From assembly GCA_020851635.1 (NCBI GenBank), contig JADZCJ010000101.1:1-48145 (forward strand): a stretch of 48,145 nucleotides of DNA. Direction: 5' to 3'. Positions 29,725 through 35,831 of the stretch are shown one piece after another. Each line of letters begins with the position of its first letter. The stretch's first letter is position 1. This DNA comes from Anaerolineae bacterium (GTDB taxonomy: Bacteria > Chloroflexota > Anaerolineae > UBA4142 > SHND01). The translations under genes were made by a program, and so were the position numbers. The notes under the pieces are model-generated. The model was not told the origin of the DNA. It searched no databases and saw nothing but the letters and a program-made list of their open reading frames with translations.

Positions 29725-30261
29725 TTATGGTTTGCGCGCGAAAATGGTTACATAGATCCTGTGACCGTCGTCGGTCTCTTGTTGGTGGAGAATTTCCAAA
29801 CTGTCAAAGACGATGGGGATTTGTTCGAGGGGGAAACGGTGGGCGGGGCTGAAATCGGGGCGATACTTGATGTCGGCGGATGTAAAAGTTTGAAAGAGGA
29901 CGGCGCCGCCGTCGGCGAGCCAATCGGCAAACCGAACGCGCGGGTCATAGAAACGAAAATTGAGAATGGTGTCGAAACTGTTTTTTGGAAACGGCAGCGC
30001 CCCGGCATCTACGACAACGCGCGCCACACCAGCTGATGCGCGGCACAGACCTACTTCTGAAATGTCTGCGTTGATGACGCGGAACGTGTCCGAGCGCCCG
30101 GCGAGCCACGCGCCATTCTGCCCCAGCCCGCCCGCCAGATCAAGGACGCGTCCCGCTTTGAGCAGGTTGGCATAGCGTTCGAGGGTCGGATTGACGTCCG
30201 TTTGGGTAAGGATTTCGAGATATTTTTTGTTCCAGCGGGCGCGGTCGGATTGGGGATTCAT
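29725..30261 (-). CDS. Class I SAM-dependent methyltransferase
   Basis: The product is 178 residues from the ATG at 30261 (a TTG two codons earlier is also open). The SAM-binding motif I is VLDLAGGLGQNGAWLA (about 40-55), motif II lies around VINADISEVGL, and DAGALPFPKNSFDTI is the typical motif IV region. Small stand-alone enzymes of this kind methylate diverse metabolites, and the substrate cannot be predicted. The gene is convergent with the histidine kinase. Confidence 0.85.
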   Translation of the reverse strand: MNPQSDRARWNKKYLEILTQTDVNPTLERYANLLKAGRVLDLAGGLGQNGAWLAGRSDTFRVINADISEVGLCRASAGVARVVVDAGALPFPKNSFDTILNFRFYDPRVRFADWLADGGAVLFQTFTSADIKYRPDFSPAHRFPLEQIPIVFDSLEILHQQETDDGHRIYVTIFARKP

Positions 30262-30335
30262 TTTCAAGGGCTGTAGGGACGCCTTTATTCCAACTAGCTT
30301 GAATGAGCTGACAAACTCTGTCTTGACAACTCGGA

Positions 30336-30496: not shown

Positions 30497-32977
30497 CTAT
30501 GGATGGGTTTCTTGTTCGAGCAGTTTACGTTTGAACACCTTGCCGACGAATGTTTTGGGCAGGTCGGCGCGAAATTCGACCATGTCGGGGACACTGTCGG
30601 CGGGCAGACGCGAGCGCGCAAAGGCGAGAATCTCGTCAACAGTCGGCTGTTCGCCGCTGCGCGGCACGATATAGACCTTGATCGTTTCATGTTGCAGATT
30701 TCCGCCGGTGGGAATGCCGAGCGCCGCCGCTTCGGTCACCTTGGGATGCTCAAAGAGCACTTCTTCAATATCGCGCGGATAAATGGTCTTGGCACCTTTG
30801 GTAATCAAATCGCTCTTGCGATCAATAAATGTGAAATATCCTTCCTCGTCCATGCGCGCGATGTCGCCGGTGTAGAGCCAGCCGTCTCGTAGGGCGCGTC
30901 CGGTCGCGGGTTCGTTATTCCAATACCCCCGCATCACCTGCGGACCGCGAATCACCAGCTCTCCAATTTCGCCGGTCTCGAGTCCCCGTCCGGTATGCAT
31001 GTCTACGATCCGGGCGTCCGTGTCGGGCAGGGGCACGCCGATGGTGCCCGGAACGTCCTCGCCAAAAATGGGGTTTGCATGAGTAACGGGACTCGCTTCG
31101 GTCAACCCATACCCTTCGACCAACCGGCCGCGCGTGATCTTTTCAAATGCCTCCTGGACTTCTAATGGCAAAGGCGCGGCGCCTGACAAGCACGCGCGGA
31201 TGGATTTGACGCCAAAGCTGCGCGCGTTTGGAAACTGATTGATGGCGAGAAACATGGTTGGCACGCCGGGAAAGATGGACGGACGGTTGCGTTGAATCGC
31301 TTCCAACATCGGACCGGTCTGGAGACCGGGCAAAAGGATCATGCGCGCCGCGATCGAGACCGCAAAATTCATGCACGTCGTCATGGCATACGAATGCGCC
31401 AGCGGGAGCGCGCAGAGAATGCGTTCTTGCGCCTCGATTACATCGGGCAGCCAGTGGCGCAGCTGCATGGTGTTGGCGACGAGATTGGCGTGGGTGAGCA
31501 TTACCCCTTTCGGAAGGTCGGTGGTGCCCGTCGAATATTGAATCAGGGCGAGGTCGTCCGGCGTCACATCCACAAGCGGCGTGTCCTTGCTCGCCCTGTC
31601 AATAAAGGGTTGAAAAAACGTGATGCCCGGCGGGGGTGTCTTGTCGAACAAGGGATTCTTGGGGATCCGAGTTTCCGCGCGCAAGGTGGTCAGGCGAACG
31701 GCGGACACGTATTCGTCCAGTCCGGTAAGAATGATGTGTTCCAGTTTTGTCCGGTCCTGAATGCGCGCGAGCATGGGATACGCTTGATTGAGGGCGAGGA
31801 CAAGGCGCGCGCCCGAATCGTCCAGCTGGTGCTGGAGCTCGGCTTGCTCGGTCAATGGGTTCAGGCTCACAAGGACCGCGCCCGCCTTGAGCGCGCCATA
31901 GTATCCGATCACAAACTGCGGACAATTGGGGAGCAGCAGCGCGACGCGGTCGCCCTTTTTGATACCGTGCGCGGTGAGCGCGTTGGCAAAGCGGTTGGCG
32001 TGTCGCCGCAGACGCCGATATGAGAGGGTGCTGTCAAAATAAATCGTCGCGATTGCGTTGGGAAATCGGCGGTCGGCAATATCCAGAAATCGAAAGAGGG
32101 GTTGACTGGGGTAATTCAAAGAATAAGGCACGCCGTCTTCGTAATGCAAGAGCCAGGGACGCGCCTGGAGCAATTTGATGTTTTCGGCGCGGCGCCCCTC
32201 GCGCCACGACACCGACTCGCCGCCGATAAAGCGCGAGATTGCGCGGTTGACCGCGTCGGCGCGTTCGAGCTGCACCATGTGCGCGGAAACGGAAATCTTG
32301 GCGAGCTGTGCGTTGGGAATCAGGTCGGCAACCTCTTCATAGCGCGTTTTTTCGAATACGAGATCGCGCACGCCCAGAATAACGAGTGTGGGGACCCGCA
32401 CATTCGGCAGAACCGCTTTGCCGTCCCATTGCGAAACGGTGTCAAGATACATGCGATTCATGACAAAAAACGGCGCATTATACCGGATGGGCAGATGTTT
32501 ACGCAGGGGTTCCACCCAGGGCGTGGGCAGGTGCGTCAAAAGTTCCTGGATGGGACCCAGTTTGAAACTGGATGCCGTGCCCACCAAAATCAGCTTGTCA
32601 ACGCGGGACGGATTCTTGACCGTGAACGAGCTTGCGATCGCGCCGCCGAACGAATGACCGATCACGACAAATTTTTGCGGCAAGTTCAACTGTTCTACGA
32701 TGCGTTCCAAATCGCTGACATGCTCTTGCATCGTGTAATCCGAGTCGGGATGATCGGAAAGCCCGTGCCCGCGCAAGTCGGGCGCAATCACGCGGTAGCG
32801 TTCGGCATAGGCGGCAAGCTGTCTTTCCCATTGGAGCGCGTGACCGCCAAAGCCGTGGATAAAGAGGAGGGTGTGTTCCGCATTACGCGGACCCGCGTCC
32901 ACCACGCTGAGCCGGACGCGCGGAGAGATAGAGACAGAGATCTCGGTGCGATAGAGGTCCAAATCTAAAAGCGGCAT
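30497..32977 (-). CDS. Alpha/beta-hydrolase fused to long-chain acyl-CoA synthetase (AMP-binding)
   Basis: The product is 826 residues from the ATG at 32977. Residues about 20-265 are an alpha/beta hydrolase: oxyanion HGFGG (41-45), nucleophile elbow GHSFGG (Ser109), Asp in LGVRDLVF and His in SAHMVQLE. Residues about 280-826 are an adenylate-forming ligase: P-loop YSTGTTDLPKG (about 480-490), GYGLTEASP, YTGDIARMDEEGYF, DRKSDLITKGAKTIYPRDIE and the catalytic Lys813 in VGKVFKRKL. The first half could release an acyl group from an ester and the second activate it to acyl-CoA. The usual Gly of GTTG is Asp here. Both active sites look complete. Confidence 0.88.
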   Translation of the reverse strand: MPLLDLDLYRTEISVSISPRVRLSVVDAGPRNAEHTLLFIHGFGGHALQWERQLAAYAERYRVIAPDLRGHGLSDHPDSDYTMQEHVSDLERIVEQLNLPQKFVVIGHSFGGAIASSFTVKNPSRVDKLILVGTASSFKLGPIQELLTHLPTPWVEPLRKHLPIRYNAPFFVMNRMYLDTVSQWDGKAVLPNVRVPTLVILGVRDLVFEKTRYEEVADLIPNAQLAKISVSAHMVQLERADAVNRAISRFIGGESVSWREGRRAENIKLLQARPWLLHYEDGVPYSLNYPSQPLFRFLDIADRRFPNAIATIYFDSTLSYRRLRRHANRFANALTAHGIKKGDRVALLLPNCPQFVIGYYGALKAGAVLVSLNPLTEQAELQHQLDDSGARLVLALNQAYPMLARIQDRTKLEHIILTGLDEYVSAVRLTTLRAETRIPKNPLFDKTPPPGITFFQPFIDRASKDTPLVDVTPDDLALIQYSTGTTDLPKGVMLTHANLVANTMQLRHWLPDVIEAQERILCALPLAHSYAMTTCMNFAVSIAARMILLPGLQTGPMLEAIQRNRPSIFPGVPTMFLAINQFPNARSFGVKSIRACLSGAAPLPLEVQEAFEKITRGRLVEGYGLTEASPVTHANPIFGEDVPGTIGVPLPDTDARIVDMHTGRGLETGEIGELVIRGPQVMRGYWNNEPATGRALRDGWLYTGDIARMDEEGYFTFIDRKSDLITKGAKTIYPRDIEEVLFEHPKVTEAAALGIPTGGNLQHETIKVYIVPRSGEQPTVDEILAFARSRLPADSVPDMVEFRADLPKTFVGKVFKRKLLEQETHP

Positions 32978-33042
32978 GGTGATCAAGTCGGCTTGCGGCG
33001 GCAAGGTCCCGAATTCTTGCCGTGTGATGTGTCTGTCATCTA

Positions 33043-33141: not shown

Positions 33142-33759
33142 CTATAAAGGAGAGATTGGACCCGGGTGGGCGATGCTCAACGCTTCGCGCAAACGATGCG
33201 CGCTGTCGGCAATTGACCCGCGCAGATACGGAGTGTCTTCGGTCTGCTTGCGGTTGGGCGGCAGTTCGGCGCCGGGTTCGAGGCGGACCGAGATAAAGGC
33301 GGGACCCTGCAAGTGGAGCAGCGTGTCGAGCTGGGTCCGGTAATCGCTCGGATTGTCGAAATAAAAGGCGTGGGGAAAGCCGCAGGCGAGCGCGATGGCG
33401 TGAAAATCCACCGCGCCCGCGCCGGGAATGTTTTGATTGCCGGTCACTTCGTAGGTGTTGTTTTGCGCGACAAAGAGGATGAGGTTGCGGGCGCGACTTT
33501 GGGCAATGGTGACGAGCGAACCGAGCGACATGAGCATACTGCCGTCGCCGTTGAGACAGAGGACGCCGCGCCGGGGCTGCGCAAGGGCGATGCCGAGCGC
33601 GAGCGATTGGGCGTGTCCCATCGCGCTGTCGGCAAAAGCAAAATCGAGTTCGTGTTTGGAGAGGCGTCCCCACGCGCGCACGAGCGACATGGTGCTGACG
33701 ACGACCTGGTCGGTGCGCCGCGCAGCGAGCGGTTGGAGAAATTCGGATTGGGTCAGCAT
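33142..33759 (-). CDS. ThDP-dependent decarboxylase, beta subunit (sulfo/phosphonopyruvate decarboxylase-like)
   Basis: The product is 205 residues from the ATG at 33759, 5 bases after the alpha subunit stop, with GGTGAA before it. It has the C-terminal ThDP-binding fold with GDGSMLMSLGSL (71-82) and Asn100-Asn101, the classic GDG-to-NN spacing, followed by TYEVTGNQ. Split enzymes of this size are sulfopyruvate decarboxylase (ComDE) or phosphonopyruvate decarboxylase. No phosphonate mutase or ComABC genes are nearby, so the 2-oxo acid substrate is open. Confidence 0.85.
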   Translation of the reverse strand: MLTQSEFLQPLAARRTDQVVVSTMSLVRAWGRLSKHELDFAFADSAMGHAQSLALGIALAQPRRGVLCLNGDGSMLMSLGSLVTIAQSRARNLILFVAQNNTYEVTGNQNIPGAGAVDFHAIALACGFPHAFYFDNPSDYRTQLDTLLHLQGPAFISVRLEPGAELPPNRKQTEDTPYLRGSIADSAHRLREALSIAHPGPISPL

Positions 33760-33764
33760 GGGTT

Positions 33765-34292
33765 TCACCGAATCGTGTCTGTGATGACGACGGCTGTCGG
33801 GCGCGACTCGAGCTGCGCCCGTTCGTGCGCGGCTTGGATTTTGCCCAGTTCGGCGTTGTCGCCGACGAGTTCGTAGGGCAGGTTCCAGGCGCAAAGGGTG
33901 GGTTCGAGAAGGGTGGCGACGGAATCCACCTCGCGGCGCGAGAGGTCGTCGGGAGTGAGCGGGTCGGGTGGGGTCGGGGGGAGGGATTTGTAGCCGCGAT
34001 AACTGACAAGACAGACCACGGGAATACGCATCCGCATCAAGGTGCCGCGCAGGGCGTCACCCGATTCCAAGAGACCCGTGTTTTGAATCACCACCAGCGG
34101 CGATTGCCCGCCCATCCACAAGCCCGCAGCGGTCGCAAACGCTTCTCCTTCGCGCGTGACCGTAATCAAATAGATGTCGGGGTCGTCTGCGAGTTCGTGG
34201 AAAAGGGCGGCGGTGGAGTTATCGGGCAAACCGACGACATGCGTAATGCCGATTTGCTTGAGCGAATCGAGAAGGCGGCGTGTGGTGAGCAT
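33765..34292 (-). CDS. ThDP-dependent decarboxylase, alpha subunit
   Basis: The product is 175 residues from the ATG at 34292. It is the N-terminal pyrimidine-binding ThDP domain, with GLPDNSTA (21-28) and the cofactor-activating Glu50 in REGEAFATAAGLWMGG, and it pairs with the beta subunit to form the complete active site. A good promoter (TTGAAC, 17 bases, TACAAT) ends 7 bases before the ATG and there is no ribosome site, so the message is probably leaderless. The frame is open upstream of this ATG but would cross the promoter. Confidence 0.85.
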   Translation of the reverse strand: MLTTRRLLDSLKQIGITHVVGLPDNSTAALFHELADDPDIYLITVTREGEAFATAAGLWMGGQSPLVVIQNTGLLESGDALRGTLMRMRIPVVCLVSYRGYKSLPPTPPDPLTPDDLSRREVDSVATLLEPTLCAWNLPYELVGDNAELGKIQAAHERAQLESRPTAVVITDTIR

Positions 34293-34299
34293 GGTCGAA

Positions 34300-34328
34300 A
34301 TTGTAACATCGCGGGGGAATTCGTTCAA
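34300..34328 (-). promoter_or_regulatory. Promoter of the ThDP decarboxylase operon (leaderless)
   Basis: On the minus strand TTGAAC (34323-34328) and TACAAT (34300-34305) are 17 bases apart. The -10 box is followed by 7 bases and then the ATG, so transcription should begin at or next to the start codon. Confidence 0.6.
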
Positions 34329-34374
34329 GCGAGGTTGAAAACCGGGGTGTACGTGCAGTCTTGGTTGCGGATGG

Positions 34375-34426
34375 GGAACGAACGCGGCAGCGTGCCGGGG
34401 GCGGGGAACGAAACGGCGTTCGTTCC
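34375..34426. repeat. Inverted repeat in the divergent intergenic region
   Basis: GGAACGAACGC (34375-34385) and GCGTTCGTTCC (34416-34426) are exact complements around 30 bases that hold another GGAACG copy. The right arm plus TTAC resembles the GCGTTCCTTAC after the hairpin at 8430-8451, suggesting a dispersed repeat. Confidence 0.55.
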
Positions 34427-34460
34427 TTACTTGCGGAATGGTGGCGCACAACCGCGCCTT

Positions 34461-34488
34461 TTGACACGTTTGCGAGATGGGCTATCAT
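34461..34488 (+). promoter_or_regulatory. Promoter of the GH4 gene (leaderless)
   Basis: TTGACA (34461-34466) and TATCAT (34483-34488) are 16 bases apart. The -10 box is 8 bases from the ATG at 34497, which has no ribosome site. Confidence 0.65.
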
Positions 34489-34496
34489 TTACGCAT

Positions 34497-35831
34497 ATGG
34501 GGAGAACCAAACTCGTACTCGTCGGGGCGGGCAGCGCCAGTTTTGGCGTCAGCACCGTCGCCGATTTTTTTCAGCAACGCGAAAAATTTATTGACAGCAC
34601 GCTGGCGCTGTGTGACCTGAATATCGGAAAACTGGAGCGCGTAAAACGCCTGGCGGACCGCATGAACGAGGCGACGGGGCACCCGTTCCGAATCGAGGCG
34701 GTGACGGATTATCGGGACGCGCTCGACGGGGCAGGAATGGTCCTGGTCTCGATCGAGATGGATCGGCTGGCGCGGTGGAAGCTGGATTGGGAGATTCCGT
34801 TCAAATATGGCATCAAGCACGTGCTGGGCGAAAATGGCGGACCGGGTGGGTTGTCACATGCGCTGCGCACGGTGCCGCTCGTCCTGGGGATTGCGCGCGA
34901 GATGGAGAAACGCGCGCCCGATGCGTATCTGATCAATTACGTCAATCCGCTGTCGCGCGTGTGTTTGGGTGCCACGCGTTATACCCGCATCAAAACGATT
35001 GGCATGTGCCATCAGATCAACAAAGGGTATGCGCTGGTGGGGCAGGCGCTGGGACTGGGACCGTCCGGACACGAACATTTTCCCGAAGCGACCGTCGTGC
35101 GCGAGCTCAAACGAAAGATTGACATCAAGCAGGCGGGACTGAATCACATGACCTGGATTCAGGACATTCGCGACCGCGCCACCGGGCGCGATTTGTATCC
35201 CGAGTTTCGCGAACGTCTGAAAACAATGGACCCGGCGTGGGAACCACTTTCACAGCGCCTTTATCGCGCGTTTGGATTGTTTCCGGCAACGGGTGACGGG
35301 CATGTGGGCGAATATTTTGCGTTTGCCCACGAGACGAGCGATTTGCGAGGATATGATTTTGACGGACGCGCGCACGAAAGCGCCGAGTTGGATGAACGGA
35401 TCGAGCGCGCGGGACAGGCGGGCGAGTCGCTCGATGAGTTTTTGAATAATGAATCGGGCGAGCGGGGGATTGATGTGGCGGCGGCGCTGTTGAACGATTT
35501 GAATCAATACGAGTTGAATGTGAATGTGGTCAATCGGGGCGCGCTGCCCGGATTGCCCGATTGGGCGATTGTCGAAGTGCCCGCCGTCGTCGGCGGCGCG
35601 GGAGTGATGCCCGTCTGTGTGCCGCCGCTGCCGCACGGCATCACGGCGCTGTTGAATCATCAAGTTGCGATTCAGGACCGCGTCGTACAAGCTGCCGTGC
35701 ATGGCGACCGCCAGGCGGCGCTCCAGGCGCTGCTGCTCGATCCTCTCGTGAGCAACTATGACGCGGCAGAGAGAATGTTGAACGAGTTGTTGGAAACTCA
35801 TCGGGCGTACACGAGTGAGTTCTCGAGCTGA
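34497..35831 (+). CDS. Glycoside hydrolase family 4 enzyme (alpha-galactosidase/galacturonidase-like)
   Basis: The product is 444 residues, the usual GH4 length. It has NAD-binding LVLVGAGSASFG (6-17), GENGGPGG (111-118), NYVNPLSR (147-154), the divalent-metal Cys171-His172 in IGMCHQ and a second His in AGLNHMTW (about 215-221). GH4 enzymes cleave glycosides by an NAD- and metal-dependent oxidation-elimination mechanism in the cytoplasm. The GMCH and NHMTW motifs resemble the LplD and alpha-galacturonidase branch more than the 6-phospho-glucosidases. The start was chosen because the promoter ends 8 bases before it. A GH13 gene follows. Confidence 0.9.
   Translation: MGRTKLVLVGAGSASFGVSTVADFFQQREKFIDSTLALCDLNIGKLERVKRLADRMNEATGHPFRIEAVTDYRDALDGAGMVLVSIEMDRLARWKLDWEIPFKYGIKHVLGENGGPGGLSHALRTVPLVLGIAREMEKRAPDAYLINYVNPLSRVCLGATRYTRIKTIGMCHQINKGYALVGQALGLGPSGHEHFPEATVVRELKRKIDIKQAGLNHMTWIQDIRDRATGRDLYPEFRERLKTMDPAWEPLSQRLYRAFGLFPATGDGHVGEYFAFAHETSDLRGYDFDGRAHESAELDERIERAGQAGESLDEFLNNESGERGIDVAAALLNDLNQYELNVNVVNRGALPGLPDWAIVEVPAVVGGAGVMPVCVPPLPHGITALLNHQVAIQDRVVQAAVHGDRQAALQALLLDPLVSNYDAAERMLNELLETHRAYTSEFSS

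Follow-up and report, generated by a model that had tools for sequence, protein, structure and literature searches.

An alpha/beta-hydrolase fused to an ANL-family enzyme in Chloroflexota, with changes in the P-loop and A8 motif of the ligase half

Described systems of related architecture

Enzymes of the ANL family are usually named CoA ligases from sequence, and the beta-lactone synthetase OleC also belongs to this family. In OleBC, OleC is joined to the beta-lactone decarboxylase OleB, with the hydrolase first, judging from the name oleBC; a hydrolase-family and an ANL-family enzyme thus lie in one chain, as in the Chloroflexota fusion described here, which was found in a window (the whole stretch of DNA analysed) of 48,145 nt. 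The text cited for the two Ole enzymes states that some bacteria have them fused and others have them as separate proteins (PMC7064751), and that cited for OleB places it in haloalkane dehalogenase subfamily III, the nucleophile of that family being Asp (PMC10503415). In contrast, the nucleophile of the fusion is Ser (Ser118, 103/103 sequences). On this difference from the cited account, OleB and OleC being compared by description only, membership in OleBC was ruled out: OleBC is a precedent for the architecture, but the Chloroflexota fusion is a separate variant.

Among the best 25 of 143 NCBIfam models matching the ligase half, the top matches were FadD models (PRK06710, PRK05605 and PRK06187, with 533, 493 and 394 bits, respectively), and in none of the 25 was the curated cut-off reached (533 vs 1116 bits; 394 vs 476 bits); neither half reached an NCBIfam cut-off among the matches listed. 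The ligase half shares with FadD the ANL fold, the catalytic Lys (A10), the A5 motif and the TGD motif, but differs in that the glycines of the P-loop and A8 motif are changed and in being fused to a hydrolase. A gene arrangement of the same order is present in Aeromonas NZ_AP026896 (L238), where an alpha/beta-hydrolase-like gene lies directly 5' of a fadD-like ligase gene on the same strand; there, however, the genes are separate and the ligase has the ordinary GTTG and VSGFN motifs. The hydrolase domain shares its fold and Ser-Asp-His triad with the PcaD enol-lactonase 2xua (Z 29.6; sequence E 1.4e-25), the AHL-degrading Est816 5egn (Z 29.3; E 1.8e-34) and the Thermogutta esterase 4uhc (Z 27.5; E 6.7e-33), but identities in the fold alignments were only 22–28% and the present domain is fused to an ANL enzyme. 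The PcaD model TIGR02427 scored below its cut-off (122.2 vs 255.85 bits).

No description of a hydrolase-ANL fusion of the present type was found in the literature covered, i.e. open-licence PMC papers. A plasmid search gave 3698 matching records, 13 of which matched at least 80% of the query in one place; two of these 13 (H3 and H17), which are among the 25 matches listed, carry two adjacent genes and separate genes, respectively, and neither is a fusion of the present family.

Reading frame and distribution of the fusion

The frame 33004-30497 on the minus strand is open for 835 codons when counted from a TTG at 33004, from which residues are numbered here. By conservation among orthologues, the start is placed at the ATG at 32977 (MPLLDLDLYR...), in agreement with the initial annotation; the N-termini of the orthologues are the same (MPLLDLDLYR or MDIDLELYR), and in two of them (L097 and L121) a stop codon lies shortly 5' of the corresponding start. 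Pfam detected Abhydrolase_1 (E 3e-31, residues 45-255) in a search with the whole ORF, and AMP-binding (E 2e-98, 330 bits) and AMP-binding_C (E 1e-12, 49 bits), both above the Pfam cut-off and together spanning residues 311-822, in the ligase half. With these domains in one frame and the same fusion in relatives, the proposal that two enzymes are carried on one chain was borne out. Since the separate hydrolase of L216 terminates in SWRD, the joint was placed just behind the SWR motif. The AF2 model of the full-length chain has a mean pLDDT of 77. Coordinates are listed in Table 1.

Table 1. Features of the fusion gene and its neighbours in the window
Feature	Position	Strand	Remarks
Fusion ORF	30497..32977	(-)	826 codons from conserved ATG, plus stop; alpha/beta-hydrolase and ANL (AMP-binding)
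Alpha/beta-hydrolase domain	32219..32977	(-)	Residues 10-262; Pfam, AF2 model, fold matches
Nucleophile elbow GHSFGG, Ser118	32642..32659	(-)	Ser in 103/103 fusions
Catalytic acid Asp214	32363..32365	(-)	103/103 fusions
Catalytic His242	32279..32281	(-)	103/103 fusions
Short linker	32165..32218	(-)	Residues 263-280, includes SWREGR; conserved
ANL domain (AMP-binding and AMP-binding_C)	30500..32164	(-)	Residues 281-835; Pfam, fold matches to ANL ligases
P-loop A3 TGTTDLPKG, Asp496 instead of usual Gly	31505..31531	(-)	Gly in 20/105 fusions vs 53/53 non-fused ANL
A5 motif EGYGLTE	31097..31117	(-)	Glu636 in 105/105 fusions
A8 motif region IDRKSDLITKGAKTIYPRDIEE	30761..30826	(-)	Canonical Gly (position 738) is Ala in the window
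A10 Lys822	30539..30541	(-)	102/103 ungapped fusions
TPP_enzyme_N gene, upstream	33768..34451	(-)	Nearest to sulfopyruvate decarboxylase alpha, under cut-off
TPP_enzyme_C gene, upstream	33145..33894	(-)	Longest frame, from TTG; true start probably further in
Small class-I methyltransferase gene, downstream	29728..30267	(-)	Conserved beside the fusion in the genus

Of 60 relatives, the genome of the window included, 24 have both halves in a single frame: all 6 genomes of the genus, 12 of the 14 from the order's other family (completeness is 78% and 70% in the two that have no fusion) and 6 among the 40 remaining class members. A survey of the phylum detected the fusion in at least 28 of 400 genomes. 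When named genomes were scanned with patterns taken from the hydrolase only, 319 relatives were obtained, and in all of the best 80 that were kept the hydrolase frame continues into a ligase. The search for the same fusion that had been suggested was therefore positive at each of these levels. No stop lies inside the frame in the kept loci, in three of which (L117, L136 and L142) the frame runs off the contig end, and the fusion is also present in three single-contig genomes (G046, G168 and G385). These occurrences rule out a frameshift or assembly error, and the fusion is genuine and old within Chloroflexota. The kept loci are labelled almost entirely as Chloroflexota, and the exceptions, L083 (Kiritimatiellae) and L115 (Acetothermia), may reflect horizontal transfer or a binning error. 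In 40 relatives, the fused hydrolases share at least 44% identity (E 1e-64 or better) with that of the window; no close standalone version was detected among the matches listed for these 40, the best unfused hydrolase having 36% identity (E 2e-23), where 36% or less refers to identity across most of the domain.

Separately encoded orthologues, which the initial annotation had named as the sign of a frameshift or sequencing error, do exist in another class of the phylum. They are nevertheless natural split genes and not the product of an error, since about 100 distinct assemblies have the fusion in frame. In a tree of 95 ligase sequences, built by a quick method with SH-aLRT support only, one clade (SH-aLRT 99) unites the 43 ligases from fusions with three that are encoded separately in this other class (L172-L174), and the remaining 49 separate ligases fall outside it. 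In the genomes of L172-L174 the hydrolase and ligase genes are neighbours with the same orientation. Among the 61 genomes of that class, 8 carry the hydrolase (E 1e-30 or better), and exactly these 8 carry a ligase orthologue (at least 62% identity); the pair is adjacent in 7 of them and lies on different contigs in the eighth (G256). The co-occurrence and adjacency of the split genes, together with the fusion, make it likely that the two halves share a function, in keeping with the functional linkage proposed at the outset. At one locus (L217:4624-5076) a small ACT-domain gene sits between the split hydrolase and ligase genes.

Residues of the two halves, selection and gene context

The hydrolase half has a Ser-Asp-His triad, a GxSxG elbow and an alpha/beta-hydrolase fold, and its oxyanion motif in the window reads HGFGG. 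The triad counts in Table 1 refer to 103 non-identical fusions. Modelled alone with AF2, the domain has a pLDDT of 90.6 and a fold like those of esterases, an enol-lactonase and lactonases. For the ligase half, residues were counted over 105 rows (103 fusions and two paralogues) and compared with 53 non-fused ANL enzymes (45 FadD-like, 5 distant and 3 split). Besides the A5 Glu and the A10 Lys, the latter within the motif GK in the window, Asp714 of the TGD motif is kept in 104/104 ungapped fusions. The expectation that both halves would keep full active-site motifs thus holds for the hydrolase but not fully for the ligase, in which A8 reads KGAK and the A4 aromatic position is Ala.

The P-loop of the window reads STGTTDLPKG in context. 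The earlier remark that nearly all relatives read GTTG where the window has GTTD is correct for separate ligases only, Gly being rare among the fusions themselves. Position 496 was occupied by A, D, G, S, N, T or E, most often Ala (43/105), with Asp in only 25 and Gly in 20; the P-loop Asp is accordingly not conserved, and this variability rules out Asp496 as a conserved catalytic residue. The A8 glycine (position 738) is present in 45/45 FadD-like, 5/5 distant and 0/3 split forms. It was found in at most 10/105 fusions (6/103 in another alignment), a count that depends on the alignment, as the loop aligns poorly; within the genus, four of six members keep it, the window not being among them. 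Where the window has KGAK, separate ligases have AGGY/F, and 66/105 fusions, many of them from Anaerolineales, have a W[YF]-type A8 loop, mostly longer and well conserved in sequence. The A4 aromatic position is F/Y in 44/45 FadD-like enzymes and Ser in 56/105 fusions and 3/3 split forms. Split and fused forms share the loss of the A8 glycine; the P-loop change is seen only in the fused ones. In FadD32, according to the text cited, the A8 glycine touches the beta-alanine part of pantetheine and P-loop residues hold phosphates (PMC4667280). The loss of this pantetheine-contact glycine argues to a degree against a CoA ligase of the ordinary kind and, together with the loss of the P-loop glycine (85/105), weakens the claim of an acyl-CoA product.

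Both halves are under purifying selection. In 15 pairs within the genus, dN/dS ranged over 0.08-0.22 in the hydrolase half and 0.10-0.21 in the ligase half, as against 0.08-0.09 for a separate FadD control (3 pairs from three of those genomes); these values are rough because several pairs come close to saturation in dS. Beyond the genus there are copies in decay: L032 has lost both the P-loop Lys and Lys822. A second, diverged fusion paralogue is present in G341 and G269 (L163 and L164), with P-loops GMSS/GMTN and the A5 motif EAYALTE.

A pair of TPP-enzyme genes (33145-34451) lies upstream of the fusion, with sulfopyruvate/phosphonopyruvate decarboxylase as the nearest models, under cut-off, and each of the other five loci kept from the genus (L065-L069) has a similar pair 5' of its fusion. 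In two of these (L068 and L069) the longest frame of the downstream methyltransferase starts at or inside the stop codon of the fusion. Further upstream, a glycoside hydrolase family 4 protein is encoded on the plus strand (34485-35828). Of the kept loci, 71 have 1 kb or more of sequence behind the fusion; in 41 of these, the following gene on that strand encodes a second alpha/beta-hydrolase of about 285 codons, overlapping the fusion in 27 cases (longest-frame starts) and lying within 50 bases in 38. Such a gene adjoins or lies near the fusion in 43/49 loci with the W-type A8 loop vs 0/22 others, in Anaerolineales (e.g. L113:5352-6206); as both traits occur largely in one lineage, this association is not an independent test. 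The Anaerolineales gene was rejected as an orthologue of the extra hydrolase of L216 (26% identity, no better than generic), and no close relative of it was found in the family of the window, the best match among 40 relatives having 34% identity over most of its length. Neighbouring RNase J and MutY genes look incidental. Since neighbours differ between families, gene context names no pathway.

Proposed function and alternatives

Our preferred reading, to which we assign a probability of about 0.5, is that ester or lactone hydrolysis is coupled to adenylation of the acid, with the acyl group most likely passed on to a thiol. In this scheme, i) the N-terminal serine hydrolase, of the esterase/lactonase type, would open an ester or lactone and free an acid, ii) the C-terminal ANL domain would convert this acid and ATP to an acyl-adenylate, and iii) a thiol, either CoA or a carrier, would most likely receive the acyl group by way of the remodelled C-terminal subdomain. 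The first two steps are supported by conserved residues, and the third is doubtful because A8 is altered. The second hydrolase gene behind many of the fusions and the Aeromonas pair of hydrolase and fadD-like genes fit this reading. The substrates, the hydrolase-to-ligase direction, the channelling suggested by the initial annotation and the thiol acceptor are those we infer. The ordinary FadD-like genes of the same genome (L001, L003/L177) count against this reading, as acid activation alone would be redundant beside them.

The order of the two steps may also be reversed, which we regard as possible though unlikely. The ANL domain would then make acyl-AMP without CoA and the hydrolase-fold domain would be the acceptor or the next enzyme, the hydrolase serine passing the acyl group to an alcohol (ester synthesis) or, by analogy with OleC and OleB, the ANL domain closing a lactone for the hydrolase. 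This is consistent with the loss of the A8 glycine in most fusions and 3/3 split forms, when it is kept in 50/50 other ANL enzymes, with the W[YF]-type loop (66/105), with the replacement of the A4 aromatic residue by Ser, and with the occurrence of OleB and OleC as fused proteins in the account cited above (PMC7064751). However, the triad and fold look like those of an ordinary esterase/lactonase, and Pfam recognised no OleA- or OleD-like gene among the recurrent neighbour clusters examined, in which annotation covers part of the neighbours. In a bolder form, which we consider rather improbable, the ANL half would not be a CoA ligase but a rebuilt adenylating domain that hands acyl-AMP to the fused or operon-partner hydrolase-fold domain. 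These proteins would then form a family, specific to Chloroflexota, of synthetases that make esters or lactones on one chain, and the second hydrolase gene that accompanies the W-type A8 loop (43/49 vs 0/22 loci) would be dedicated to them.

That the ANL half is non-catalytic, serving the hydrolase as sensor or scaffold while drifting at the P-loop and A8, seems distinctly improbable. Variation at these two motifs, the missing lysines of L032 and the further motif losses of the L163/L164 paralogue set point in this direction, but the adenylation residues are nearly invariant, dN/dS of the ligase half in the genus of the window is low, and the conserved W-type A8 sequence looks remodelled rather than decayed. 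There is practically no chance that a sequencing or assembly error joined two genes, for although separate adjacent orthologues occur in the other class, the in-frame fusion recurs in many independent assemblies, single-contig ones included, with a conserved linker and no internal stop.

Whichever the order of the steps, this clade keeps the adenylation residues and yet loses the phosphate and pantetheine glycines, alongside a fused serine hydrolase that is always intact. Should the acceptor be other than CoA, many Chloroflexota genomes would carry wrong annotations, and a new route of lipid making or turnover would become testable; with CoA as the acceptor, the clade would show that the A8 glycine is dispensable. 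With either acceptor, the genomes with split genes offer a ready comparison.
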